From assembly GCF_017592555.1 (NCBI RefSeq), contig NZ_JAGFNS010000018.1, forward strand, positions 124,001 to 188,000: a stretch of 64,000 nt of DNA, in the 5' to 3' direction. The position numbers and the translations under genes are program-made. Shown here piece after piece: positions 464-20,238 of the stretch. The stretch comes from Actinoplanes flavus (GTDB lineage: Bacteria; Actinomycetota; Actinomycetes; Mycobacteriales; Micromonosporaceae). The notes under the pieces were generated by a model. It was not told the origin of the DNA, ran no database searches, and worked only from the letters and a program-made list of their open reading frames with translations. The first letter of the stretch is position 1; the number at the start of each line of letters is the position of its first letter.

Positions 464-898
464 TCAGCGGGTCGCGAAAGCCGCGATCCGGTCCAGCAGC
501 CCGTTGAGGAAGCGGGGGCTGTCGTCGGTGGACATCTCCTTGGCCAGCTCGACCGCCTCGGTGATCGCCACCGGGTCGTCGACGTCGGCCTCGTAGAGCA
601 GCTCGTAGACCGCGATCCGGGCGAGGTTGCGGTCGACCACCGGCATCCGGTCGATCGTCCACCCCTCGGCGTAACTCGCGATCAGCTCGTCGATCCGGTC
701 GAGATGCTTCGCCACGCCGTCGATGAGCGTTTTCGAGTACTCCAGGTGCTCGGGGTGCGGCTTGGCGATCCGGTCCAGGTAGGTGAGCAGCACCTGGCTC
801 GGCGGCAGGTCACGCAGGTCGGCCTCGAAAAGGACGTCCAGCGCTCGCTTGCGGGCCTTGCGACGCGCGAGCCGTTCCTTCTTGGGACCTTCGGCCAT
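464..898 (-). CDS. nusB: Transcription antitermination factor NusB
   Basis: NusB is the small helical RNA-binding protein that with NusE (S10) binds boxA of rRNA leaders and prevents premature termination. The 144-residue product has the normal length, a basic N-terminus (RLARRKARKRALDVLFEADL) and the conserved C-terminal segment VVDRNLARIAVYELL...DDPVAITEAVELAKE. Its ATG overlaps the efp stop as TGATG, so the two are translationally coupled. The order efp-nusB beside bldD is conserved in actinomycetes. Confidence 0.95.
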   Translation of the reverse strand: MAEGPKKERLARRKARKRALDVLFEADLRDLPPSQVLLTYLDRIAKPHPEHLEYSKTLIDGVAKHLDRIDELIASYAEGWTIDRMPVVDRNLARIAVYELLYEADVDDPVAITEAVELAKEMSTDDSPRFLNGLLDRIAAFATR

Positions 899-1455
899 CA
901 GCTGCGGCCGAGGTAGCGGCCGTCGCGGGTGTCGACCTTGATCTTCTCACCGGTGGTGATGAAGAGCGGAACCTGGACGGTCGCGCCGGTCTCGACGGTG
1001 GCCGGCTTGGTGCCGCCGGTCGAGCGGTCGCCCTGCAGGCCCGGCTCGGTGTAGGTGACCTCGAGGAACACGCTGGTCGGCAGCTCGATGTAGAGCGGCA
1101 CGCCCTCGTGCAGGGCCACCGTGGCCTCGGCCTCCGGGAGCAGGTAGTTCGAGTTCTCACCGACCGTGCCGCCGGACACGTGGATCTGGTCGTAGGTGTC
1201 CAGGTCCATGAAGACGAAGTCCTCGCCGTCCTGGTACAGGTACTGCATGGTGCGCTTGTCCACGGTCGCGGTCTCGACCTTGGTGCCGGCGTTGAACGTC
1301 TTGTCGACGACCTTGCCGGACAGCACGTGCTTGAGCGTGGTGCGCACGAAGGCGGGGCCCTTGCCCGGCTTGACGTGCTGGAACTCAACGACGGACCACA
1401 GCTCCCCGTCGAGGTTGAGAACCAAACCGTTCTTCAGGTCGTTGGTGGAAGCCAT
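898..1455 (-). CDS. efp: Translation elongation factor P
   Basis: EF-P enters the ribosomal E site and relieves stalling on polyproline stretches. The 185 residues give the standard three-domain length. Domain I carries the loop [10 protein letters not shown], whose lysine tip (PGKG) points to the peptidyl transferase centre, and the C-terminus ends in the usual [11 protein letters not shown]. This host encodes proteins extremely rich in proline, notably the 1529-residue product at 13552-18141, so EF-P demand may be high (inference). The ATG at 1455 is preceded by an AGGCAGG Shine-Dalgarno. Confidence 0.97.
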
Positions 1456-1530
1456 GTCCTGCCTTGATCTTGATACGTATCGGTGACCGAACCACTCTAC
1501 CGGCGCGGCGCGGCTCGGAGCGAATCGGGC

Positions 1531-3158
<1,628 letters not shown>

Positions 3159-3187
3159 TCACGGCCGCAACGGGGGAGATCATCAAT

Positions 3188-4003
3188 ATGAGACTGAGTC
3201 GACGTGCCGCGCTGCGTGCCGCGCTGCTCACCGCCGGTGGGGCGGTCGGCGGCGTGGTGGGCATGGACGCGCTGTCACAGGCGTTCGGCTGGGACCGGCC
3301 ACCGGTCAGCGGCGGCTACGCGGCCGCCGCCGACGCGCCCGAGGCCCTGCGCACCGCCAACCTGACCATCCGGTACTTCGTGGAGACCACCGAGCCGGTG
3401 GTGGCGTTCACCTTCGACGACGGCCCCGGCCCGCAGTGGACGCCGATGGTGCTGGACGCGCTGGACCAGGCGAACATCCCGGCCACGTTCTTCATGGTGG
3501 GCCAGAACCTGGAGAAGCACGCCGACCTGGTCCGCGACCGGATGGGCCGGCACGAGATCGGCAACCACTCCTGGTCGCACGACGACCTGGCGACCCTGGA
3601 CCGCGCGGGCGTGGAGACCGAGCTGTCCCGCACCCACGACATGATCAAGAAGGTCTTCGGCCGGGAGACGACCCTGCTGCGCCCGCCGTACGGGCACCTC
3701 GGCGGGTCCACGGTGCTGGCCGCCGACCACTTCGGCTACGAGATCGTGCTGTGGTCGCACCTGATGCGGGAGAAGTACTTCCAGGACGACCCGGACGGCC
3801 AGGTCCGCGACATCGTCGACAACGTCCGCCCCGGCTCCATCATCCTGGCCCACGACGTCGGCAAACCGCACCGGCTGGTCTCGCTGCGCGGCCTGAGCGC
3901 CATGTTCAGCGGCCTCAAGGCCCGCGGCTTCCAATTCGCCACGGTCTCCGAGCTGGCCGCGCTGCAGACCCGTCCGAGCCCGCCGCCGCTCACTACCGCC
4001 TGA
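3188..4003 (+). CDS. Secreted polysaccharide deacetylase (NodB/CE4)
   Basis: A metal-dependent carbohydrate esterase that removes acetyl groups from amino-sugar polymers such as peptidoglycan or chitin. All CE4 motifs are visible: TFDDGPG (motif 1, Asp pair), [13 protein letters not shown] (motif 2, metal histidines), LRPPYGH (motif 3), VLWSHLM, and ILAHD (motif 5). The N-terminus [19 protein letters not shown] has a twin-arginine look, so export is likely, possibly by Tat. The ATG at 3188 follows GGGGGAGATC. The gene is 271 codons, reads opposite to the surrounding aro genes, and its last 11 bases overlap the end of aroK. Confidence 0.88.
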
Positions 4004-4496
4004 GAAGGGCGAGGACCTCGGCGGTGGTCTCGGACTCCTCGCGGCCGTCGGTGGCGACCGTGTGGGTGGCCACCTCGAGGTAGAGCGGGCGGCGCTGGTC
4101 CAGCAGGTGCCGCAGGGTGGCCCGCGGGTTGATCGCGAGCAGCGGACGGCCGGCGCCCAGGCCGACGCGCTTGATCGCGTCGGCCAGCTCGACCGAGAGG
4201 TAGACGACGGTGTGCCCGGTCAGCAGCTTCCGGGTGCCCTCGTCCAGGATCGCGCCGCCGCCCAGCGCCAGGACGCCGTCGAAGGTCGCCAGCGCGTCGG
4301 CGACGGTCCGCCGTTCCAGGTCGCGGAAGGCGGGCTCGCCGTCCTCCACGAAGATGTCCGGGATCGGCTTGCCGGCCCGGTCCTCGATGATCGCGTCGGT
4401 GTCGGCGAAGGGGACACCCAGCTCGGCGGCGACCGCCGCGCCGATGGTGCTCTTACCGGCGCCCATGACGCCGACGAAGACCGCGACCGGGGCCAT
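3993..4496 (-). CDS. aroK: Shikimate kinase
   Basis: Phosphorylates shikimate at the 3-position with ATP. The 167-residue P-loop enzyme shows the Walker A motif [11 protein letters not shown] near the start, the shikimate-binding DTD in [18 protein letters not shown], the GGG turn in [14 protein letters not shown], and the lid RPLL....[11 protein letters not shown]. The ATG at 4496 overlaps the aroC stop as TGATG. It is separated from aroB by the inverted deacetylase gene, whereas these genes are usually contiguous. Confidence 0.95.
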
Positions 4497-5674
4497 CAGT
4501 GGATGATCAGGTTGTCGAGGTACGACCGGAGGTTGCGCCGGATCTCGGCGACCGAGTCGCCGCCGAACTTCTCGGTCGCGGCCTCGGCCAGGACCAGCGC
4601 CACCATCGCCTCGGCCACGATCGCGCCGGCCGGGACCGCGCAGACGTCGGAGCGCTGGTTGATGGCGGTGGCCGGCTCGCCGGTGGTGATGTCGACGGTC
4701 TGCAGCGCCCGGTTGAGCGACGAGATCGGCTTGAGCGCGGCGCGGACCCGCAGCGGCTCGCCGTTGGTGATGCCGCCCTCCAGGCCACCGGCCCGGTCGG
4801 TGACCCGCTTCACCCCGTCCGGGGTCGGGACGATCTCGTCGTGCGCCACCGAGCCGCGCGAACGGGCCTGGGTGAAGCCGTCGCCGATCTCCACGCCCTT
4901 CACCGACTGGATCGACATGAGAGCGGTGGCCAGCCGGGCGTCGAGCTTGCGGTCCCACTGCACGTGCGAGCCGAGACCCGGCGGCACGTTGTAGGCCAGC
5001 ACCTCGACGATGCCGCCGAGGGTGTCCGCGTCCTGCTTGGCGGCGTCGACCTCGGCCACCATGCGGGCGCTGGCCTCCGGGTCGAGGCAGCGCAGCGGGT
5101 CCTCGTCGATCCGGTCGAAGTCGTCGGGGGTGGGGATGACGCCGGGCTTGGCGGCCACCGCGCCGAGCTCGATGACGTGCGACACGATGTCGATGCCGAG
5201 CGCCTGCTTGATCAGCTTCTTGGCGACCACGCCGACGGCGACGCGGGCCGCGGTCTCCCGGGCGCTGGCGCGCTCCAGGATCGGGCGGGCGTCGGTGTGC
5301 CCGTACTTCTGCATGCCGGCCAGGTCGGCGTGCCCGGGACGCGGGCGGGTCAGCGGCGCGTTGCGGGCCTGCGCGGCGAGCAGCCCCGGGTCCACCGGGT
5401 CGGCCGCCATGACGGTCTCCCACTTGGGCCACTCGCTGTTGCCCACCCGGATCGCGACCGGCGAGCCCTGGGTCACCCCGTGCCGGATGCCACCGATGAG
5501 TTCGAGCTCGTCCTGCTCGAACTTCATCCGGGCGCCGCGGCCGTACCCGAGGCGGCGGCGCACCAGATCACGCATGATGTCCGCGCTCGTCACCTCGATC
5601 CCGGCGGGGACACCCTCGAGCAGCGCGACGAGCGCCGGTCCGTGCGATTCACCTGCAGTAAGCCAGCGCAACAC
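4496..5674 (-). CDS. aroC: Chorismate synthase
   Basis: Last step of the shikimate pathway: anti-1,4-elimination of phosphate from EPSP to chorismate, using reduced FMN. The 392-residue product starts [21 protein letters not shown] with the conserved GESHG, then [18 protein letters not shown], and has the flavin-site blocks [14 protein letters not shown] and [21 protein letters not shown]. The C-terminal [23 protein letters not shown] is typical. It is coupled to aroK. Confidence 0.97.
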
Positions 5675-10028: not shown

Positions 10029-12710
10029 TCAGGCCTTGTCGGCGACCGCCTGCTCGATCGCGGCCAGCAGACGCGGGGCCTCCCCAGCCGGCACGCCGCC
10101 GCCCTGCGCCAGGTCGGCGTTGCCGCCGCCCCGGCCGGACAGCGCCGCCCTGACCAGGTCCTGCGCGGACAGCCCGCGGGTCTTCGCGGCGCCGTTGATC
10201 GCGACGATCAGGGACGCCTTGCCGTTCGCCCGGGCGGTCACCGCGACCACCGCGGGCCGCGCCGCGTCGATCTTGCCGCGGATCTCCTGCGCCAGCGTCC
10301 GCACGTCGTTGCCGGCCGCGCCCTCCGGCGCCTCGGTGCCGACATACGCCACCCCGCGCACGTCCTTCGCCCCGGACGCGAGCGCCGCCGCCCCGCCCAG
10401 CACCATCTGCGCCCGCAGCTTGTCCAGCTCCTTCTCCGCGTCGCGCAGCGCCGTGACGGTCTGCTCGACCCGGTCGGCGACCTGCTCGCCCGGCACCCGG
10501 AACAGGTCGGCCAGACGGGACACCAGCAGGTGCTCCTTGGCCAGGAAACTGAACGCGTCCAGACCCACCAGGGCCTCCACCCGGCGCACCCCGGAGCCGA
10601 TCGACGACTCGTTGAGGATCTTCACGAGGCCGAGCTGGCCGGAACGGGCGACGTGGGTACCGCCGCACAGCTCACGGGCGTAGTCGCCGACCTCGACGAC
10701 CCGGACCTCGTCGCCGTACTTCTCGCCGAACAGCGCCATCGCGCCGAGCCGGCGCGCCTCCTCCTGCGAGGTGATGAACGCGTTCACCTCGAGGTCGCGC
10801 AGCAGCACCTCGTTGATCTGCTGCTCGACGTCGAAGAGCACCGACGGGTTCACCGCGCCGGGAGTGTGGAAGTCGAACCGCAGCCGGCCCGGAGCGTTCA
10901 GCGAACCCGCCTGGGTCGCCGACTCGCCGAGGAAGTTGCGCATCGTCTGATGCACCAGGTGCGTCGCGGTGTGCGACCGGGAGATCGCCTTCCGGCGGGT
11001 CACGTCGATCTCGGACAGCGCCGTCTCGCCCGCGCGCACCTCACCCCGGACCACCCGCGCCTTGTGCACGATCAGGCCCGGCAGCGGCTGCTGCACGTCG
11101 ACGATCTCCAGCCGGCCGCCACCGACGTTGATCACACCGGTGTCCGCCTGCTGGCCGCCGCCCTCCGCGTAGAACGGGGTGGTGTCCAGCACCAGCTCGA
11201 CGAAGTCGCCCTCGCCGGCCACCTCGATCCGGCCCTTCTCGCCGATCAGCGCCCGGACCCGGGACTCGCGGGAGATCTCCTGGTAGCCGGTGAACTCGAC
11301 CGGGCCGCCCGCGTCCAGCGCCGACCGGTACGCCGACAGGTCCGCGTGGCCGGTCTTGCGGGCCGCCGCGTCCGCCTTCGCCCGGTTCCGCTGGTCGGCC
11401 ATCAGCCGGCGGAAGCCCTCCTGGTCGACCTGGAGGCCCTGCTCCTGCGCGATCTCCAGGGTCAGGTCGATCGGGAAACCGTACGTGTCGTGCAGCTGGA
11501 ACGCCTTGTCACCGGACAGCTGCGTCTGGTTGGAGGCGCGCGTCTCGGTGATCGCGGTGTCCAGGATCGTGGTGCCCGCCTTGAGCGTGGAGAGGAACTG
11601 GTCCTCCTCCGCGTACGCGTACGTGGAGATCCGCTCGAAGTCGGTCGCCAGCTCCGGGTACGACGGGGACATGCAGTCCCGCGCGATCGGCAGCAGGATC
11701 GGCAGCGCCTTCTCCTGCCAGCCGAGCAGGCGGATCGACCGGATCGCCCGGCGCATGATGCGGCGCAGCACGTAGCCGCGGCCCTCGTTGGACGGGGTGA
11801 CGCCGTCGCCGATCAGCATCAGCGCGGTACGGACGTGGTCCGCGATCACCCGCAGGCGCACGTCGTCCGGGTGGCTCTCGGACGCCGCGTGGCCGGAGCG
11901 CTTGCCGTACTCCTTGCCGGTCAGCTCGGCGGCCTTGGCGAGGATCGGGCGGACCTCGTCGATCTCGTACAGGTTGTCGACGCCCTGGAGGATCGACGCG
12001 ATGCGCTCCAGGCCCATGCCGGTGTCGATGTTCTGCTTCGGCAGGTCACCGACGATCGTGAAGTCCTCCTTCGACTTCACGTCGGTGATCTCGTGCTGCA
12101 TGAAGACCAGGTTCCAGAACTCCAGGTACCGGTCCTCGTCGACCTCCGGGCCGCCCTCCTTGCCGTACGCCGGGCCACGGTCGTAGTACAGCTCCGAGCA
12201 CGGGCCCGCCGGGCCGGGGATGCCCATCGACCAGAAGTTGTCCTTCTTGCCGCGGCGCACGATCCGCTCCGCCGGCAGGCCGGTCTGCTTCCAGATCTCG
12301 ATGGCCTCGTCGTCGTCCAGGTAGACGGTCGCCCAGATCTTCTCCGGGTCCAGACCGAAACCGCCCTGCTCGACCGGCTTGGTGGACAGCTCCCACGCCA
12401 GCGGGATCGCGCCCGCCTTGAAGTAGTCGCCGAACGAGAAGTTGCCGTTCATCTGGAAGAACGTGCCGTGCCGGCTGGTCTTGCCGACCTCGTCGATGTC
12501 CGGCGTCCGGATGCACTTCTGCACGCTCGCGGCCCGCTGGTACGGCGGGGTCCGCTGCCCCAGGAAGAACGGGACGAACTGCACCATGCCGGCGTTGATG
12601 AACAGCAGGTTCGGGTCGTCGATAGCCGGCAGCGGGGCACTCGGGACCACCGTGTGCCCGTTCGCCTCGAAATGCGCCAGAAAGCGCCGCTTGACTTCCG
12701 CCGTTCTCAT
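10029..12710 (-). CDS. alaS: Alanyl-tRNA synthetase
   Basis: Charges tRNA-Ala and edits Ser/Gly mischarging. The 893-residue product starts [19 protein letters not shown] at ATG 12710, preceded by GGAGGGAAATCG. Class II motifs are visible in the N-terminal half ([46 protein letters not shown]). The editing domain has HTATHLV and [13 protein letters not shown] zinc ligands, and the C-Ala region is glycine-rich ([14 protein letters not shown]). The ATG overlaps the stop of the small upstream gene (ATGA). Confidence 0.97.
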
Positions 12711-12997
12711 CGATTTCCCTCCTGCGAGCCGGGCCACGCGTCGTCACGCAACTCGGCGAACTTGTCCTCATACAGCTCGCCCGCGGCGAACGCCTCGTGG
12801 ATCTGGTGCTCCCGCTCGGCCATCCCCTCGCGGACGTCTTCCACGAAGCTACGCAGCGACTCGACGAGCCCGCCAGCGGATTCCGACAGCGAGGTCGCGA
12901 TCCCGGTCGGGGTGAACTCGCTGGCCTTCTGGTTCAGCTTGCGAACGACGAGGGCGCCGACGGCCAAGCCGACGCCGAGCCACAGCAGGCGCTTCAT
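12707..12997 (-). CDS. Small membrane-anchored protein (DUF6167-like)
   Basis: A 96-residue protein with an N-terminal hydrophobic segment ([15 protein letters not shown]) followed by a charged, probably amphipathic tail with [24 protein letters not shown]. The same position upstream of alaS in Streptomyces holds a DUF6167 gene, and this looks like that family, but the function is unknown. The ATG at 12997 follows GAGAGG, and the stop overlaps the alaS start, so the two are coupled. Confidence 0.75.
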
Positions 12998-13022: not shown

Positions 13023-13472
13023 TCAGCGGGCGGCCTTGCGGCGCTGCTTGAGGGTGGCGCGGACCTCGCGCTCCTCCTCGGCGTGCCGTCGGGCGGCGGT
13101 GGCCTTGCGCAGGCCGTACCCGAAAGACGCGACCTTGACCAGCGGGTTGGCCGCGGCGGCCGACACGACGGTGACCAGGTTCGCGACATTGGCCGTGATG
13201 TTCTGAGCGTGCCCGGTCATCGTGTCGACCTTGGCGAGCTGGACGTTGACGCCGTCCAAAGAGACCTGAACCTGACCGAGCGCGGTGTTCACGTTCTCCA
13301 CCGTGACGTTCACGTTGGAGAGCAACGGTCCCGTCCGGTCGACCAGGTCGTTGATCGCGTTCGTCGTGGCGTCCACGGTGCGGCCCAACTTCAGGATGGG
13401 CACGGACAGCACGAGAACGAGCATGAGGAAGGCGCCCGCCGCGATCAGGCCTGCGATTTCTCCGGCATCCAT
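13023..13472 (-). CDS. DUF948 membrane protein
   Basis: 149 residues with one N-terminal membrane segment (about residues 7-28, AGLIAAGAFLMLVLVLSVPIL), then a heptad-like region (TVDATTNAINDLVDRTGPLLSNVNVTVENVNTAL) that may form a coiled coil, and a basic tail rich in Arg/Lys/Glu. This is the usual DUF948 layout. Function is unknown; the gene is conserved beside alaS in actinobacteria, between it and rarA. Confidence 0.8.
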   Translation of the reverse strand: MDAGEIAGLIAAGAFLMLVLVLSVPILKLGRTVDATTNAINDLVDRTGPLLSNVNVTVENVNTALGQVQVSLDGVNVQLAKVDTMTGHAQNITANVANLVTVVSAAAANPLVKVASFGYGLRKATAARRHAEEEREVRATLKQRRKAAR

Positions 13473-13551: not shown

Positions 13552-16500
13552 TCACGACGCCTGGGGTGTCGGCGAGAAGAGCGGATCATCGGTGGACAAC
13601 ACCGTGTCCGGAGTCACCCCGACCAGCCCCGGCGTGGTCTCCTTCTCACCCCGCCGGTCCTCGATCTTGTTCCACACCTTGATCCGGACCGTGGAGCCCT
13701 GGCACGCCCCCGGCTCCGGCAGCGCCTCCGCGGCGCCCGCCGTCGGGTTCTGCTCCGCCGAGATCTGATCCACCGCGCAGCCCGGCAGGCCCACCGCCAG
13801 GTCCAGGGTCAGCTCGTCCCGGCTCCAGCAGCTGTAGGTGCCCTCCTCCGGAGCGACCGGCGTCTCCGGGCAGCCCTCGACCTTCCGCTGCTTCCAGCCC
13901 GCCTTGGTCAGCGCCGCCGCGTAGACGTCGGCGGTCTCCTTGAACGGCCGGTCCGATTCGGCCTTCCGCTCCCGGAACGAACACTCCATGATGCACAGCG
14001 TGCTGCCGGTCTCCTGATTCTCCACATCCTTCGCGGCCCAGGACGGAACCTTCAGCGCCGCCAGCGAGGCCAGCACCGGATCGCTGCTCGCCGCACGCAA
14101 ACCGACGAACGCCGGCAGAGCCAGCAACACCAGCGCCGCCAGCGAGAACAGCGTGACGAGCCGCAGCCTCCGCTGCGTGCGCAGCTTGTGGCGCAGCTCG
14201 GCGAGGCCACCCTCGGCCGTTTCATCCTTCAGGGGTACGCCGTTCGCGTTCCCCCCGGACGCATCGCCGGGCCCCATCGGGCGTACCGAGCCGGTCGCGT
14301 TCGTGCCCGGGTCGTCCGGGCCGGGCTGACCGTCGGGGCCGCGACCGGGAACGGAGGCGCCACCACGTCCCGACCCCGGAACGGCGGCACCACCCCTCGC
14401 CGGACCGTCCACCCCGGGGACCGCGGCACCACCCCTGGCCGGGCCGTCAATGCCGGGAACCGCGGCACCACCCCTGGCCTGACCATCCATGCCGGGAACC
14501 GCAGCGCCACCCCTGGCCGGGCCGTCCACGCTCGCGGCGGCGCCCAGCGCCCGCGACGGCGCGCCGGGAACAGCGGCGCCGCCCCTGGCCGGACCGTCCA
14601 TGCCGGGAACCGCTGCGCCACCACGTGCCGGACCGTCCCCGCCGGGAACCGCGGCCCCACCACGTGCCGGACCGTCCATCCCGGGGACCCCGGCGCCACC
14701 ACGGGCCGGACCGTCCCCACCGGGAATCGCACCGCCGCGTGCCGGGCCGTCGACGCCCGGCGCGGCACCGCCACGTGCCGGACCGTCGAGTCCTGGGACT
14801 GCGGCCCCGCCCATCGGGCGGGAAGGTTTACCGGGAACGGCGACGCCTGCCCTCGCACGCGGAGCACCCGCGGCGCCGGGAACGGGCGCGCCACCCATCG
14901 CCCGAGAAGGACCGTCCGGGCCGCCCTGGGCCCTGTCCGGGCCACCCGGACCTCTGTCCGGGCCGCCCTGGCTCCTGTCCAGGCCGCCCGGGCCTCTGCC
15001 CGAGCCGCCCGGGCCTCGGGACGGGTCGCCCTCCGAACCGGGCATGCCACGTCCCGGGCCACCGTCCGGACCCGCCATGCCGCGTCCCGGGCCACCGTCC
15101 GGACCCGCCATGCCGCGCCCCGGGCCACCATCCGGACCCGCCATACCGCGCCCCGGACCACCATCCGGACCCGACGGGCCATGTCCGGGACCGCCTTCGG
15201 CACCGCGGCCGGGCAGCCCCGAAGGTCCGCCTTCCAGGTCTGCGGGTCCACGGCCGGGCACGGCAGCGCCGCCACGTGCGGGGCCACGGCCCGGAGCCCG
15301 CCCCGGAACCTGGGCGCCGCCTCGTGCCGGGCCACCGTTGGGACCGGGCACACCGCCGGGTCCAGCCATGCCGGCCGCACCACCTGGGCCGCCCGCGCCA
15401 CCCGGCATCCGACCGGGGCCACCGGCACCGGGGCCGGCCGTCCCCGGGCCGGGACCACCGCTGTGCTTTCCCACCGCGCCACCCGGACCGGGCGTGCCGG
15501 GACCGGTCATGGCACCCGGGCCGGAACCACCACCGTGCTTTCCGACCGCGCCACCCGAGCCGGGGCCGGGTACGCCATCCGATCCGGGCGGGCCGACCAC
15601 GGCACGGCCGGGAGCAGCGGCGCCCATCGCCTGTGCGGGCCCGCCACCCGAGACCGGCGCCACACGGCCGGAACCCTGGCCCAGGCCGCCACCGGAGACG
15701 GGCGCGGCACGACCGGGGCCGCCACCCGGAACGGGCGCGGCGCGACCGGGCACGGCCGCACCGGTCCGGGCACCGCCCGGGCCGTCCGGACGGGCACCGC
15801 CGTGCCGGCCGGTGTGCTCCTCCTCCGGCGCGAACGGTCCGGCGGCAGGCACATCGGCGCGGGCCGCGCGGCGGCCGGGGCCGGGCTGTTCGGGTACCGC
15901 CACGCCACCGGTGACGCCCTGGTCCTCGCCGGGCCGCGCCGGGCCGCCGGGACCCTGCTGGCCACGGCCGGGACGCTGGATCACACCGGAGGTGCTGTCC
16001 GCCATCGCGCCGGCACGACCCGGAACGGCCGGGGTGCGGGCACCCTGACGTCCGGGGACGACCGGCGGGACGACGGCGGCGGCCCGGACCGGGCGGCCGT
16101 CACCCGGGCCGATGCGGCGCGGGCCGGGCACGTCCGGGGTGCCGGTGAAGCCACCGATCTCCGGCTCGTCCGGGTCGGCGGAACGGCGTGCGGCACGGCG
16201 CCGGCGCGGCTCGCCGCCGGACCGTCCGCCGGCGCCGCCTCGGCCGTCCTTGCCGGGCTGTGCCCCGGGACCGGACCCACCGTCACCGGGGCGGCGGACG
16301 AACCCGACCGTGCCGGTGTCGTTCCCGGGATCGGGGAAACCGTCCGCGCGGACCAGCGAGTGCGAGCCGGTGCCGAAGTCACCCTCCGAAGGGCCACGCC
16401 TACCGGGTCGCTCGTCACCGGGCGGCGCGGCATGGCCGGGCCGGTGCCGCGGGTCGCCCTCCGGGGCGGCCCGCCCGGACCGGGTGCCACCGCCGTGCCG

Positions 16501-18141
16501 GCCGGTCGGCTCCTCGAAGGCGCCCGGCTCGTCGGCGCGGGACCGGCGGCCCCGCCCCGGCCGGTCGTCGGGCGCGCCCGGAACACCGTAGGCGCCCGGC
16601 GCGGCACGGCCGGCGCCCTGCTCGTACCCGTTCGGAAGGGCCCCGGAGCGATGCACGGCATCCTGCCCGCCGGGAACGGGACCGGAGTCATGGACCGGAT
16701 CGAAACCACCCTGCCCCGAACCAGGCCGCCGCCCACCCGGCACCGGACCGGAATCCTGAACCGGATCGAAACCACCCTGCCCCGAACCAGGCCGCCGCCC
16801 ACCCGGCACCGGACCGGAATCCTGAACCGGGTCGAAGCCGCCGGGGACCGGGCCGGAGCGGTGTGCGGCGCCACCCGGAATCGGGCCCGAGTCGTGCACG
16901 CCCGGAATCGGGCCGGAGCGGTGCACCGGGTCGTGCGCGCCCGGCTGAGACGCGGGGTCGTATCCGCCGGGCGGAGGGCCGGACCGTCCGGGCGAGACCG
17001 GGTCGGCGGGGCGGAAGCGGTCTCGCGCCGGGGCGGCCGGGGACAGCGGACGGATGCCCGGGCCCGCGGACCGGGGGCCCGGCGAGACCGGGCGCACGCT
17101 GGACGTGGTCGGCGGCACCCCGGGAACCTCGGGCGCGTTGCCGGAGAGCGGCACCGGCGCCTGGCCGGGGAACATCTGGCCGGACGGATCGACGTCCATC
17201 TGACGGCGGGCGTGACCCGCCTCGGGGGTCACCGCCGCGCGGCCGCCCTGCGGAGGTCCGGTCCGGCGGGCGCCCGGCGGTGCCTGTCCCGGCACCGCGC
17301 CGGGCGGGCCGGCGGGAGCTCCCGGTGGCATCTGAGCGGGCATGCCCGGCCCGGACCCCGGCGGCATCTGCCCCGGCATACGCGCTGCGGACCCGGGCGG
17401 TCCCGGTACGGCGCCCGGCGGCGTCCGGCCCGGGGCTCCGGGCGCGGCGCCCGGTCCCATCTGACGGGGAGGCGCTCCCGGGGGCATCTGACCGCCCGGT
17501 CCGGTCTGGCGGGGAGGAGTTCCCGGTGGCATCTGCCCCGGCATGCCCGGGGCGGCAGGCGCGGCGCCCGGCGGCATCTGGCCGCGCTGACGCCGCCCGC
17601 CCGGAGCACCGCCCGGCGGCATCGGGCCGGGCGAGGCCGGTCCAGCGGGCATCTGGGCGGGCGGCATCGCACCCGGCGGCATCGGAGGGGGCGGAACGGG
17701 CCCGCCCTGCGGACGACCGCCGGGTGGAACGGCCGCGGCACGCTGCCCACCCGGAGGAGACGCCGGGCCCGGGGGGCCGGGTCGTTGCCCCGGCCGCTGG
17801 CCCGGCTCGGCGTCCATCCGGTCGCCCGCCGCCGGGAGGCCCTCGCCGGGGCCGCCGGGAAACGCGAAGTCGTCGTCGGGCATGTCGTCCGGCCCCGGCG
17901 CGACCCGGCCGGACTTGCTGGTCCGGCCCTCCCCCGGCAGGGTGCCGGGGCCGATCGCGTTGCGTTCCTCTTTGGCCACCCGTAGGTCGTCGAGCCAGCC
18001 GGTCTCCTCGCGCGGGACCTCCTGGGGAACGGCCGGCTGATCGGCACGGCCGCCACGCCCGAAGCGCCGGCGGTTCTTCCCGCCCTGCTCCTCGCGCGAC
18101 CCCGCGTCGTCGTCGGGCCGATCGGCACCCCGCCCTGTCAC
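13552..18141 (-). CDS. Giant Pro/Gly-rich disordered single-pass membrane protein
   Basis: 1529 residues, not recognised as any named family. Residues 1 to about 1320 are low complexity, rich in Gly, Pro, Ala and Arg, with several tandem repeats: QMPPG-type units near 200-330, a 20-residue [20 protein letters not shown] unit near 440-480, an 11-residue [11 protein letters not shown] unit repeated four times near 985-1030, and a 13-residue [13 protein letters not shown] unit near 1100-1260. A basic stretch ([13 protein letters not shown]) precedes one membrane span (about 1325-1347), then a 180-residue domain with several cysteines (CIMEC...C...C). Positive-inside bias puts the repeats in the cytoplasm. 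The GTG start overlaps the rarA stop (GTGA). The long frames on the opposite strand are antisense shadows. Confidence 0.8.
14370..14830 (-). repeat. Coding repeats of about 39 bp in the giant protein
   Basis: Around a dozen degenerate copies encoding (M/V/I/G)[12 protein letters not shown] follow one another in frame; spacer length varies slightly between copies. The repeated DNA continues into shorter imperfect versions on both sides. Such arrays change length by slippage or recombination without breaking the frame. Confidence 0.85.
15045..15180 (-). repeat. 33-bp coding tandem repeats in the giant protein
   Basis: Four nearly identical 33-bp units encode [11 protein letters not shown] in frame, bounded by looser [15 protein letters not shown] units. 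They lie in the cytoplasmic disordered part, upstream of the 39-bp array. Confidence 0.85.
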
Positions 18142-19841
18142 CGCGTTTCCTCTCCGGCGCTGACGCCGCTGTCGTAGTCACTCTCGGCCTCGGTCTCCGC
18201 GGAAGCCCCGGTTTCCGGGGGATCTCCCACCCCACCGGAGGTGTCAGCCTCACCGGAGGCCACGGCCTCACCGGAGGCGTCCGCCCCGTCGGTGGCCGGG
18301 CTCTCCCCCGCCACCGCGGCCTCGACCGGTTCCGAGTCCGCCGACGACTGTGACTCATCGGCGGCCCGAGCACCACCCGCCGCGCGGTCCGGGGTACCCA
18401 CCGAAGCGGTAACAGTCCTGCCTACCCGCGCCGAGGAGGATTCGTCACCATCAGTGCGCGGCGCCGCGCCGAGACCGCGAACGATACGCCGGAGGCGGGG
18501 GACCCGCTCGGCCACCAGCCGTTCGGCGCCGTGGTCGGTCGGGCGGTAGTAGTCGACGCCGGTCAGGTCGCCGGGAGCGTACTGCTGGCGGACCACACCG
18601 CGCGGGTCGTCGTGCGGGTAACGGTAGCCACGGCCGTGGCCCAGCCCCCGCGAACCCGGGTAGTGGGCGTCGCGCAGATGCGGCGGAACGGGGCCGCCCC
18701 GCCCGGCCCGGACGTCCGCCATCGCCTCGCCGAGGGCGGTGGTGACGCTGTTCGACTTCGGGGCGGTGGCCAGGTGCACCACGGCCTGGGCCAGGTTGAG
18801 CCCGGCCTCGGGCAGACCCACGTTCTGGACGGCCTGAGCCGCCGCCGACGCCACGAGCAGGGCCTGCGGATCGGCCATGCCGACGTCCTCGCTGGCGAAG
18901 ATCACGATCCGCCGGGCGATGAACCGCGGGTCCTCCCCGGCGACCAGCATGCGGGCCAGGTAGTGCAGGGCCGCGTCCGGATCGCTGCCGCGCATGCTCT
19001 TGATGAACGCGCTGATCACGTCGTAATGGGCGTCGCCGTCCCGGTCGTAACGGACCGCGGCGACGTCGACCGCCTTCTCCGCGGTGGCGAGATCGATCTC
19101 CCCGACGTTCTGGGCCAGGGCGCTTCCGGCCGCGGCCTCCAGCGCCGTGAGGGCCTTGCGTACGTCGCCGCTCGCCAGTCGTACCAAATGGTCCTCTGCC
19201 TCGGCGGAAAGGGTGACGGCGCCGCCCAGGCCGCGCTCGTCGGTGATCGCGCGCCGGATGAGATCGCGCACGTCCTGCTCGTCGAGGGCGTGGAGGGTGA
19301 GCAGCACGCAGCGGGAGAGCAGGGGCGAGATGACCGAGAAATACGGGTTCTCCGTGGTCGCGGCCAAGAGGGTGACCGTGCGGTCCTCGACGGCGGCGAG
19401 CAGCGAGTCCTGCTGGGTCTTGCTGAAGCGGTGCACCTCGTCGATGAACAGGACGGTCGGCGGGCCGCCATAACGTCGCTCGCGGCGGGCCGTGTCGATC
19501 ACCGCGCGCACGTCCTTGACACCGGCGGTCAGCGCCGACATGGCGACGAACTTGCGATCCGTGGCGTTGGCCACCAGGTGCGCGATGGTGGTCTTGCCGG
19601 TGCCGGGCGGACCCCAGAGGATCACCGACATCGGACTCGCGCCGGTCACCAACTGGCGCAGCGGGGCGCCGGGGGCCAGCAGGTGCTTCTGCCCGACCAG
19701 CTCGTCGAGGGAGACCGGCCGCATCCGCACCGGGAGCGGCGCGTCACCGGAGGGCGAGCCGAATCCGGCGGTCCCGGCGGCGGCCGGACCAGCGGTCGGC
19801 GCCTCCGGTGAGGCGAGGGAGAAGAGCCCGTCCGTTTCCAT
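18138..19841 (-). CDS. rarA: RarA/MgsA-type AAA+ ATPase (replication-associated recombination)
   Basis: Clamp-loader-like ATPase that acts at stalled replication forks. The 567-residue product has Walker [10 protein letters not shown] (about residue 75), Walker [10 protein letters not shown], sensor 1 ATTENP, the arginine-finger region ISPLLSRC, and the C-terminal tetramerisation segment ([24 protein letters not shown]). An acidic, Ser/Thr-rich tail of about 110 residues follows and is longer than usual. ATG 19841 is chosen because the upstream extension is low complexity and lacks family similarity. It is coupled to the giant-protein gene by GTGA. Confidence 0.9.
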
Positions 19842-20016
19842 CACAAACGACAGTACCGGCCCCGGCGGCCCGATCCGCAATGCGGACCACCGCCCTGTGG
19901 AAACGCTCCCGAGCAGCCACGACGGCCTCACGCAGCGTGTGCAGACACGGCTGGAGGCCCGCCGGGGGAAGGCGGGCCTCCAGGGGCCGGAGGTCGCGGC
20001 CGAGCGGCCGCGGGGA

Positions 20017-20238
20017 TCAGCCGCGGCCGGGGCGACGGCCGTAGAAGCGGCGGCCGGAGCCGGTGCCCGCACCGGCACGCGGGCCGCTGCCGATGCCCGC
20101 CAGGTACAGCGAGACGAGCAGCAGGCCGAGCGACGCCATGGTCGGGAAGTTGAACAGGTCGGGAGCACCGAAGTTGGTGTCGAGCAGGTCGGCGAGAAGG
20201 TAGATGCCGAAGACGACGGCGCCTGCGATGGCGAGCAT
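20017..20238 (-). CDS. Small two-span membrane protein
   Basis: 73 residues starting [20 protein letters not shown] at ATG 20238, with a strong GGAGGAACC Shine-Dalgarno. Two hydrophobic segments (about 2-19 and 32-52, [17 protein letters not shown]) are followed by a short Arg/Gly tail ([11 protein letters not shown]). Not recognised; similar tiny proteins are common in actinomycetes. It stands alone between rarA and aspS. Confidence 0.7.

Follow-up and report, generated by a model that had tools for sequence, protein, structure and literature searches.

What would a bacterium do with a protein that is mostly one very long low-complexity chain, with a predicted membrane span only near its C-terminal end? 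The question is raised by a reading frame of 1529 codons in a 64 000-nucleotide stretch of the Actinoplanes flavus genome (assembly GCF_017592555.1, contig NZ_JAGFNS010000018.1, positions 124 001 to 188 000), hereafter the window, in which all coordinates are given. A preliminary description made from the letters alone had seen in it a membrane-anchored scaffold of possible condensate-forming type. From comparison with relatives in the family Micromonosporaceae, we put at about even the chance that the product is a single-pass, membrane-anchored flexible tether that presents docking motifs to a cytoplasmic partner. The frame and the parts of its product are as follows, from N-terminus to C-terminus.

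13552–18141, minus strand: whole reading frame, 1529 amino acids, with a GTG start that overlaps the rarA stop (GTGA)
18046–18075, minus strand: basic cluster, residues 23–32, where relatives often have (K)GRRWGRGR, as judged by eye
17944–18009, minus strand: conserved N-terminal motif, residues 45–66, with the core GW[LI]x[DE]LR; candidate docking site
14212–17886, minus strand: low-complexity tract, approximately residues 86–1310, rich in Gly, Pro, Ala and Arg and free of Cys, probably disordered by composition
17122–17154, minus strand: internal conserved motif, residues 330–340, [VILM]PxSGNAP, from a motif search in the long loci
16048–16068, minus strand: internal motif PPVVPGR, residues 692–698, present in 25 of 78 loci from 4 genera
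14098–14166, minus strand: predicted single membrane span, residues 1326–1348 (hydropathy candidate 1324–1342), preceded by basic residues at 1317–1327
13555–14088, minus strand: predicted extracytoplasmic alpha/beta domain, residues 1352–1529, with six conserved Cys, from alignment and an AlphaFold2 model

The C-terminal domain was searched for first in 150 genomes of the family (family and genus labels follow the classification of the search database), and loci were fetched for the window itself and, out of 136 further family genomes that gave a match, for 100, the remaining 36 staying outside the fetched set. Counts that refer to rarA, the gene directly upstream, are based on 100 loci in which rarA is visible, namely that of the window, those of the named species Actinoplanes sandaracinus and A. 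aureus, and 97 fetched ones; fetched loci L077, L079 and L131, with no rarA in view, were excluded. The A. aureus locus L032 is an apparent duplicate of L035 (equal protein length and start), which makes the 80 loci carrying the N-terminal motif 79 distinct ones. Frame-broken, truncated and duplicate loci were excluded from the counts of composition and of gene starts.

The frame announced in the preliminary description is present, on the minus strand, which that description did not name. The opposite strand is also open, over a frame of 1265 amino acids (14188–17985, plus strand) that we read as a shadow frame arising from the GC richness of the tract. Since frames may be open by chance at 80% GC, and 1265 antisense codons are open here, openness alone is weak evidence; openness together with codon usage was likewise rejected as proof of translation, because the antisense frame is open too and has the higher codon-usage score. 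Third-position GC gives no consistent signal in the tract. Tract DNA from 14 close pairs of relatives was aligned blind to frame, and substitutions at codon positions 1, 2 and 3 number 810, 754 and 2195, with the third position highest in every pair. Because of this excess we take the tract to be translated and under selection at the protein level; coding on the antisense strand is argued against, as it would put the excess on position 1. Aligned bases keep the same phase over 88–99.8% of each pair, and 175 of the 359 gaps in these alignments are multiples of three. Moreover, of the 80 motif loci, 72 have the N-terminal motif and the membrane span in a common open frame, at distances of 975–5046 nucleotides, where one third would be expected in phase by chance. 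In one genus (g31), motif and span are out of phase in four of the five fetched loci (L047, L059, L064 and L074), with an identical remainder, an offset that could reflect sequencing errors, real breaks or frameshifting alike.

The product had been described as having about 1320 residues of Gly/Pro/Ala/Arg repeats. Its composition bears this out, with these four residues making up 904 of the first 1330 in the window protein, except that the first ~85 residues are not low-complexity and hold a conserved motif. Residues 1–85 are similar across relatives, with an RGADRPDDD-type start, the basic cluster and then GW[LI]x[DE]LR, after which AK and IGP often appear. The pattern [GA][WY][LI]x[DE]LR, searched for just after rarA, is present in 80 of the 100 loci with rarA in view; the other 20 comprise 17 short forms, described below, and L101, L130 and L132. 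Letters outside the search pattern are conserved as well: E at −3 (79 of 80 loci), A at +8 (78 of 80) and K at +9 (74 of 80). The source genome measures 9.68 Mb, and in it the DNA pattern of the N-terminal motif matches this gene and one site unlike the motif, while that of the internal motif matches this gene alone. The first 86 residues had no match among PDB sequences at E ≤ 1.

The composition of the tract suggests that it is disordered. Net charge per residue averages +0.031 (standard deviation 0.014) over 72 long tracts and is positive in all 72; lysine averages 0.2% and aromatic residues 1.4%, and cysteine is absent from 71, the single exception having an uncertain start. Protein length runs from 1165 to 1938 amino acids within one genus, and tandem arrays occur in the tract. 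The internal motif [VILM]PxSGNAP is found in 51 of 78 long loci from 11 genera, compared to an average of 0.00 loci over 50 shuffles. Over the 72 tracts PPP is depleted to ∼40% of expectation (229 versus 581 in shuffles), falling below it in 64, which speaks against the connection that had been drawn to elongation factor EF-P as a requirement for polyproline translation; PPG occurs 483 times versus 588 in shuffles. This make-up of Pro, Gly, Ala and Arg, with few aromatics, no Cys and near neutrality, favors a soluble random coil over a sticky condensate former. On a random-coil estimate the arm would reach ∼38 nm (root mean square), with a contour of ∼475 nm.

Exactly one hydropathy span, adjoining the tract, is predicted in 101 of 101 loci, and in the window protein it follows basic residues, as had been noted. 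The small cysteine-containing outer domain was also rightly recognized: six cysteines lie at residues 1383–1480, after the span. In an alignment of 50 members C64, C68, C119, C136 and C161 of this ectodomain are invariant and C105 nearly so, and disulphides may form among them. The AlphaFold2 model (mean predicted local distance difference test score 86.7 for ectodomain and span, 86.0 for the ectodomain alone) has alpha/beta architecture, with strands and helices. Foldseek searches with the ectodomain model returned nothing at E ≤ 0.001, the best match being CalU16 (E 0.056). A second structural aligner placed PA1624, EagT6, PA94, SciW (three entries) and DcrB at the top, with Z of 6.7–8.1 (the best scores, 7.2–8.1, being tied within about 1: PA1624, Z 8.1, root-mean-square deviation 3.5, 107 residues aligned; EagT6, 7.8, 2.8 and 93; DcrB, 7.2, 3.8 and 104), and below them Mog1 (Z 5.2–5.6) and a photosystem II chain (Z 5.0), which we take to be PsbP; a further run of this aligner gave a comparable order. 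Most of the top matches share one fold with Mog1 and PsbP, and the model tentatively points to a Mog1/PsbP/DcrB-like fold, at Z values commonly reached by models that match nothing clearly.

Sequence searches agree with the statement that no named family has this layout: the window protein has no Pfam or NCBIfam match. Comparison of the C-terminal domain with known families, which the preliminary description had proposed, gave no convincing sequence family in Pfam, NCBIfam or PDB sequences, only the tentative fold likeness; the best stray match was NF058595 (E 0.0029, in 1 of 15 members). Pfam families of the Mog1/PsbP/DcrB fold were absent from the matches of the 50 members (E ≤ 0.1), and from those of two short and two lipoprotein-like forms (E ≤ 5).

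The C-terminal domain occurs in 137 of the 150 family genomes. In a class-wide sample of 296 genomes, for most of which only the first 10 candidates were scored, such that remote relatives may be missed, it was found only in three members of the same family, plus two chance matches. These two, weak profile matches outside the family (E 4.7e-4 and 6.9e-4), were set aside as one-span proteins of another kind, aligned over the span region only. The 13 family genomes that gave no match at first comprise two with a lipoprotein-like form, one in which the gene is cut by the contig end with the motif still visible, one with no rarA match, and nine without the gene, in which a DUF948-like gene is next after rarA, as judged by eye. 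The lipoprotein-like forms (L140/L185 and L181) are proteins of 131–132 amino acids directly after rarA, with a lipobox-like LTGC and a divergent, related ectodomain. Since a lipoprotein works outside the cytoplasm, they support the placement of the Cys domain outside and the arm inside.

In a RarA tree, also computed before 12 of its rows were added, the family splits once, into a short-form side (support 85) and a long-form side (support 95). On the former are 17 short forms (175–205 amino acids), one form of 410 amino acids, both lipoprotein-like forms and five rows that have no such gene; the latter, of 85 rows, holds 81 long forms and four rows in which the whole gene is lost, and no short form. 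A single change thus accounts for the arm. One side may have gained it or the other lost it, and the polarity is not settled because the outgroup does not have the gene. Within the long clade, none of the sampled genomes has lost the arm alone. The preliminary description mentions neither the N-terminal and internal motifs nor the short and lipoprotein-like forms.

The flexible tether that we favor builds on the translation and selection of the arm, the conservation of its motifs, the predicted span, the single long/short change and the existence of a lipoprotein-like version of the ectodomain. The protein would cross the membrane once, with its N-terminus in the cytoplasm and its C-terminus outside, where the small Cys-rich ectodomain may bind or sense something in the envelope. 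The arm of ∼1300 residues would be a soluble, non-sticky flexible tether. Close to its free end it would present a conserved motif for docking, centered on GW[LI]x[DE]LR, and in many genera another one or two further inside, VPxSGNAP and PPVVPGR. A partner in the cytoplasm could thereby be captured or recruited as far as tens of nanometers from the membrane, which would link an envelope site to that partner. A more specific version, which we hold tentatively and at less than even probability, is a transmembrane tether particular to the Micromonosporaceae, in which an envelope-fixed ectodomain, a cytoplasmic entropic chain of several hundred to ∼1700 residues and a terminal capture motif physically join an envelope site, across tens of nanometers, to a machine in the cytoplasm or bound to the nucleoid.

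Several observations weigh against the tether. Eight of the 80 motif loci are frame-broken (in seven the motif and the span differ in phase, and the eighth, which includes a run of N, contains stops), at sites that differ, and these breaks may be either errors or real; moreover, six of 138 C-terminal domain matches have internal stops, two of the six being among the fetched loci. The invariance of GW..LR is circular, since the search pattern fixes it, and L101 (731 amino acids) and L130 (1363 amino acids) are long yet do not contain the motif pattern; VPxSGNAP is likewise missing from 27 of the 78 long loci. A crude positive-inside test favors a cytoplasmic N-terminus in only 80 of 101 loci. 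The lipoprotein-like relatives share 21–24% identity with the window domain and retain two of its six cysteines, and the domain profile detects one of them (E 0.0011) and misses the other; kinship therefore rests on place and alignment together. The gene is dispensable, since it is missing after rarA in nine of the 13 family genomes with no initial match. Finally, we infer docking, partner and ectodomain ligand alike, and the partner is only a candidate.

That the arm is mostly passive, a minisatellite-like, harmless in-frame expansion beside an ectodomain that alone matters, would fit the freely varying lengths and tandem arrays, the short and lipoprotein-like forms, and the share of gaps that are multiples of three. 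We regard it as unlikely given the third-position excess, the conserved tip and internal motifs, the PPP depletion, the constant sign of the charge and the absence of short forms inside the long clade. A condensate attached to the membrane and driven by the arm, the role proposed in the preliminary description, is suggested by the very long Arg/Gly/Pro-rich tract with its membrane tether and by the window copy, in which PARGG occurs 11 times versus 0.2 in shuffles and RGG 14 versus 8.7. Over the 72 tracts, the composition rich in RGG and aromatic stickers was not found, as RGG is at shuffle level (358 versus 359), aromatics are scarce and net charge is close to zero; stickers of the types that drive such condensates are few in the arm. 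The proposal did not hold up well against these counts, and we consider it quite unlikely, a shade below the RarA anchor discussed next.

Could the partner be RarA itself, with the basic arm binding an acidic RarA tail and holding this fork-repair factor near the envelope? The coupling to rarA claimed beforehand is real: the GTG start overlaps the rarA stop, the upstream frame product matches the MgsA/RarA families, and in 77 of the 90 loci counted the start lies −8 to +3 nucleotides from that stop. The overlap is nevertheless a weak functional clue, because at least three of the 29 non-family loci (L151, L152 and L167) show the same arrangement, there with a DUF948-like gene overlapping the stop of rarA. 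The window RarA ends in an acidic low-complexity tail of 115 amino acids (residues 562–676, net charge −17), and the median tail is 52 amino acids, net −3, in 83 long-form rows versus 9 in 17 short-form rows (range 5–16) and 9 in 29 outgroup loci (range 5–40). Yet tail length and long form go together through a single evolutionary change only; of 81 long-form rows, 15 have a tail of at most 20 amino acids; in genus g13 the tails measure 39–43 amino acids and no such gene follows rarA; and medians for 23 genera are not significantly correlated (rho 0.34, p 0.11). An anchor for RarA is accordingly quite unlikely in our estimate. A signal transducer with a single span, akin to anti-sigma factors or receptors, in which the motif holds a regulator, the ectodomain senses and the arm is just a linker, would be in keeping with the cytoplasmic N-terminus, the small Cys ectodomain and the motif beside a basic patch. 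We judge it very unlikely: the identified neighbors are rarA, a DUF948 gene, alaS and an aspS-like gene, with no regulator among them, the protein has no family match, and we know of no such transducer with a comparably long linker.

As far as we have seen, a long cytoplasmic chain with a tip motif, one span and a Cys ectodomain is a new combination, and the part of the literature that was searched held no description of this protein. In RNase E, the scaffold of the RNA degradosome, a long, fast-evolving disordered region attached to the membrane carries short docking motifs. The flexible tether resembles it in having a probably disordered region that adjoins a predicted membrane span and carries conserved short motifs in fast-evolving sequence. 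It differs in its true membrane span and its ectodomain, and it has no catalytic domain; the likeness is one of way of working, and no relation in sequence was seen, none having been sought. LpqN (PF10738) proteins are extracytoplasmic and actinobacterial like the ectodomain, and share the Mog1/PsbP fold; they are lipoproteins, and we rejected kinship with them on profile comparison (hhalign probability 0.2%, with 13 of the 17 LpqN matches used). The source genome has no PF10738 match. SspA of Actinoplanes missouriensis (AMIS_68180) belongs to the same genus and is a surface-related protein of 191 amino acids, predicted to be disordered, with a signal peptide and a sortase signal (PMC13293333); on that account it was rejected as the same gene, being a different gene with a different topology. 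The window protein has no sortase anchor (C-terminal LPXTG, span and basic tail), its span being followed by a 178-residue domain that ends in PTPQAS.

The dozens of diverged orthologues, in which arm length and sequence vary freely while charge sign, Cys absence, the tip motif and mostly one internal motif are kept, offer a clean setting in which to ask which features of long disordered regions selection maintains. If the tip motif has a partner, the protein would be a new link between envelope and cytoplasm in Gram-positive bacteria.

The genes on either side of the frame are:

18138–20168, minus strand: rarA (MgsA/RarA AAA+ ATPase), upstream, its stop overlapped and its product bearing the acidic C-terminal tail
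13023–13472, minus strand: DUF948 gene, downstream, identified by a Pfam match

Downstream of the DUF948 gene lies alaS (10029–12737), and an aspS-like gene lies upstream of rarA. Outside the family, the gene after rarA is DUF948-like in approximately 12 of 29 loci, as judged by eye, and is alaS or another gene in the rest. The EF-P gene said to lie nearby is indeed in the window (898–1455), at a distance of ∼12 kb from the 1529-amino acid frame that makes "near" a loose term.

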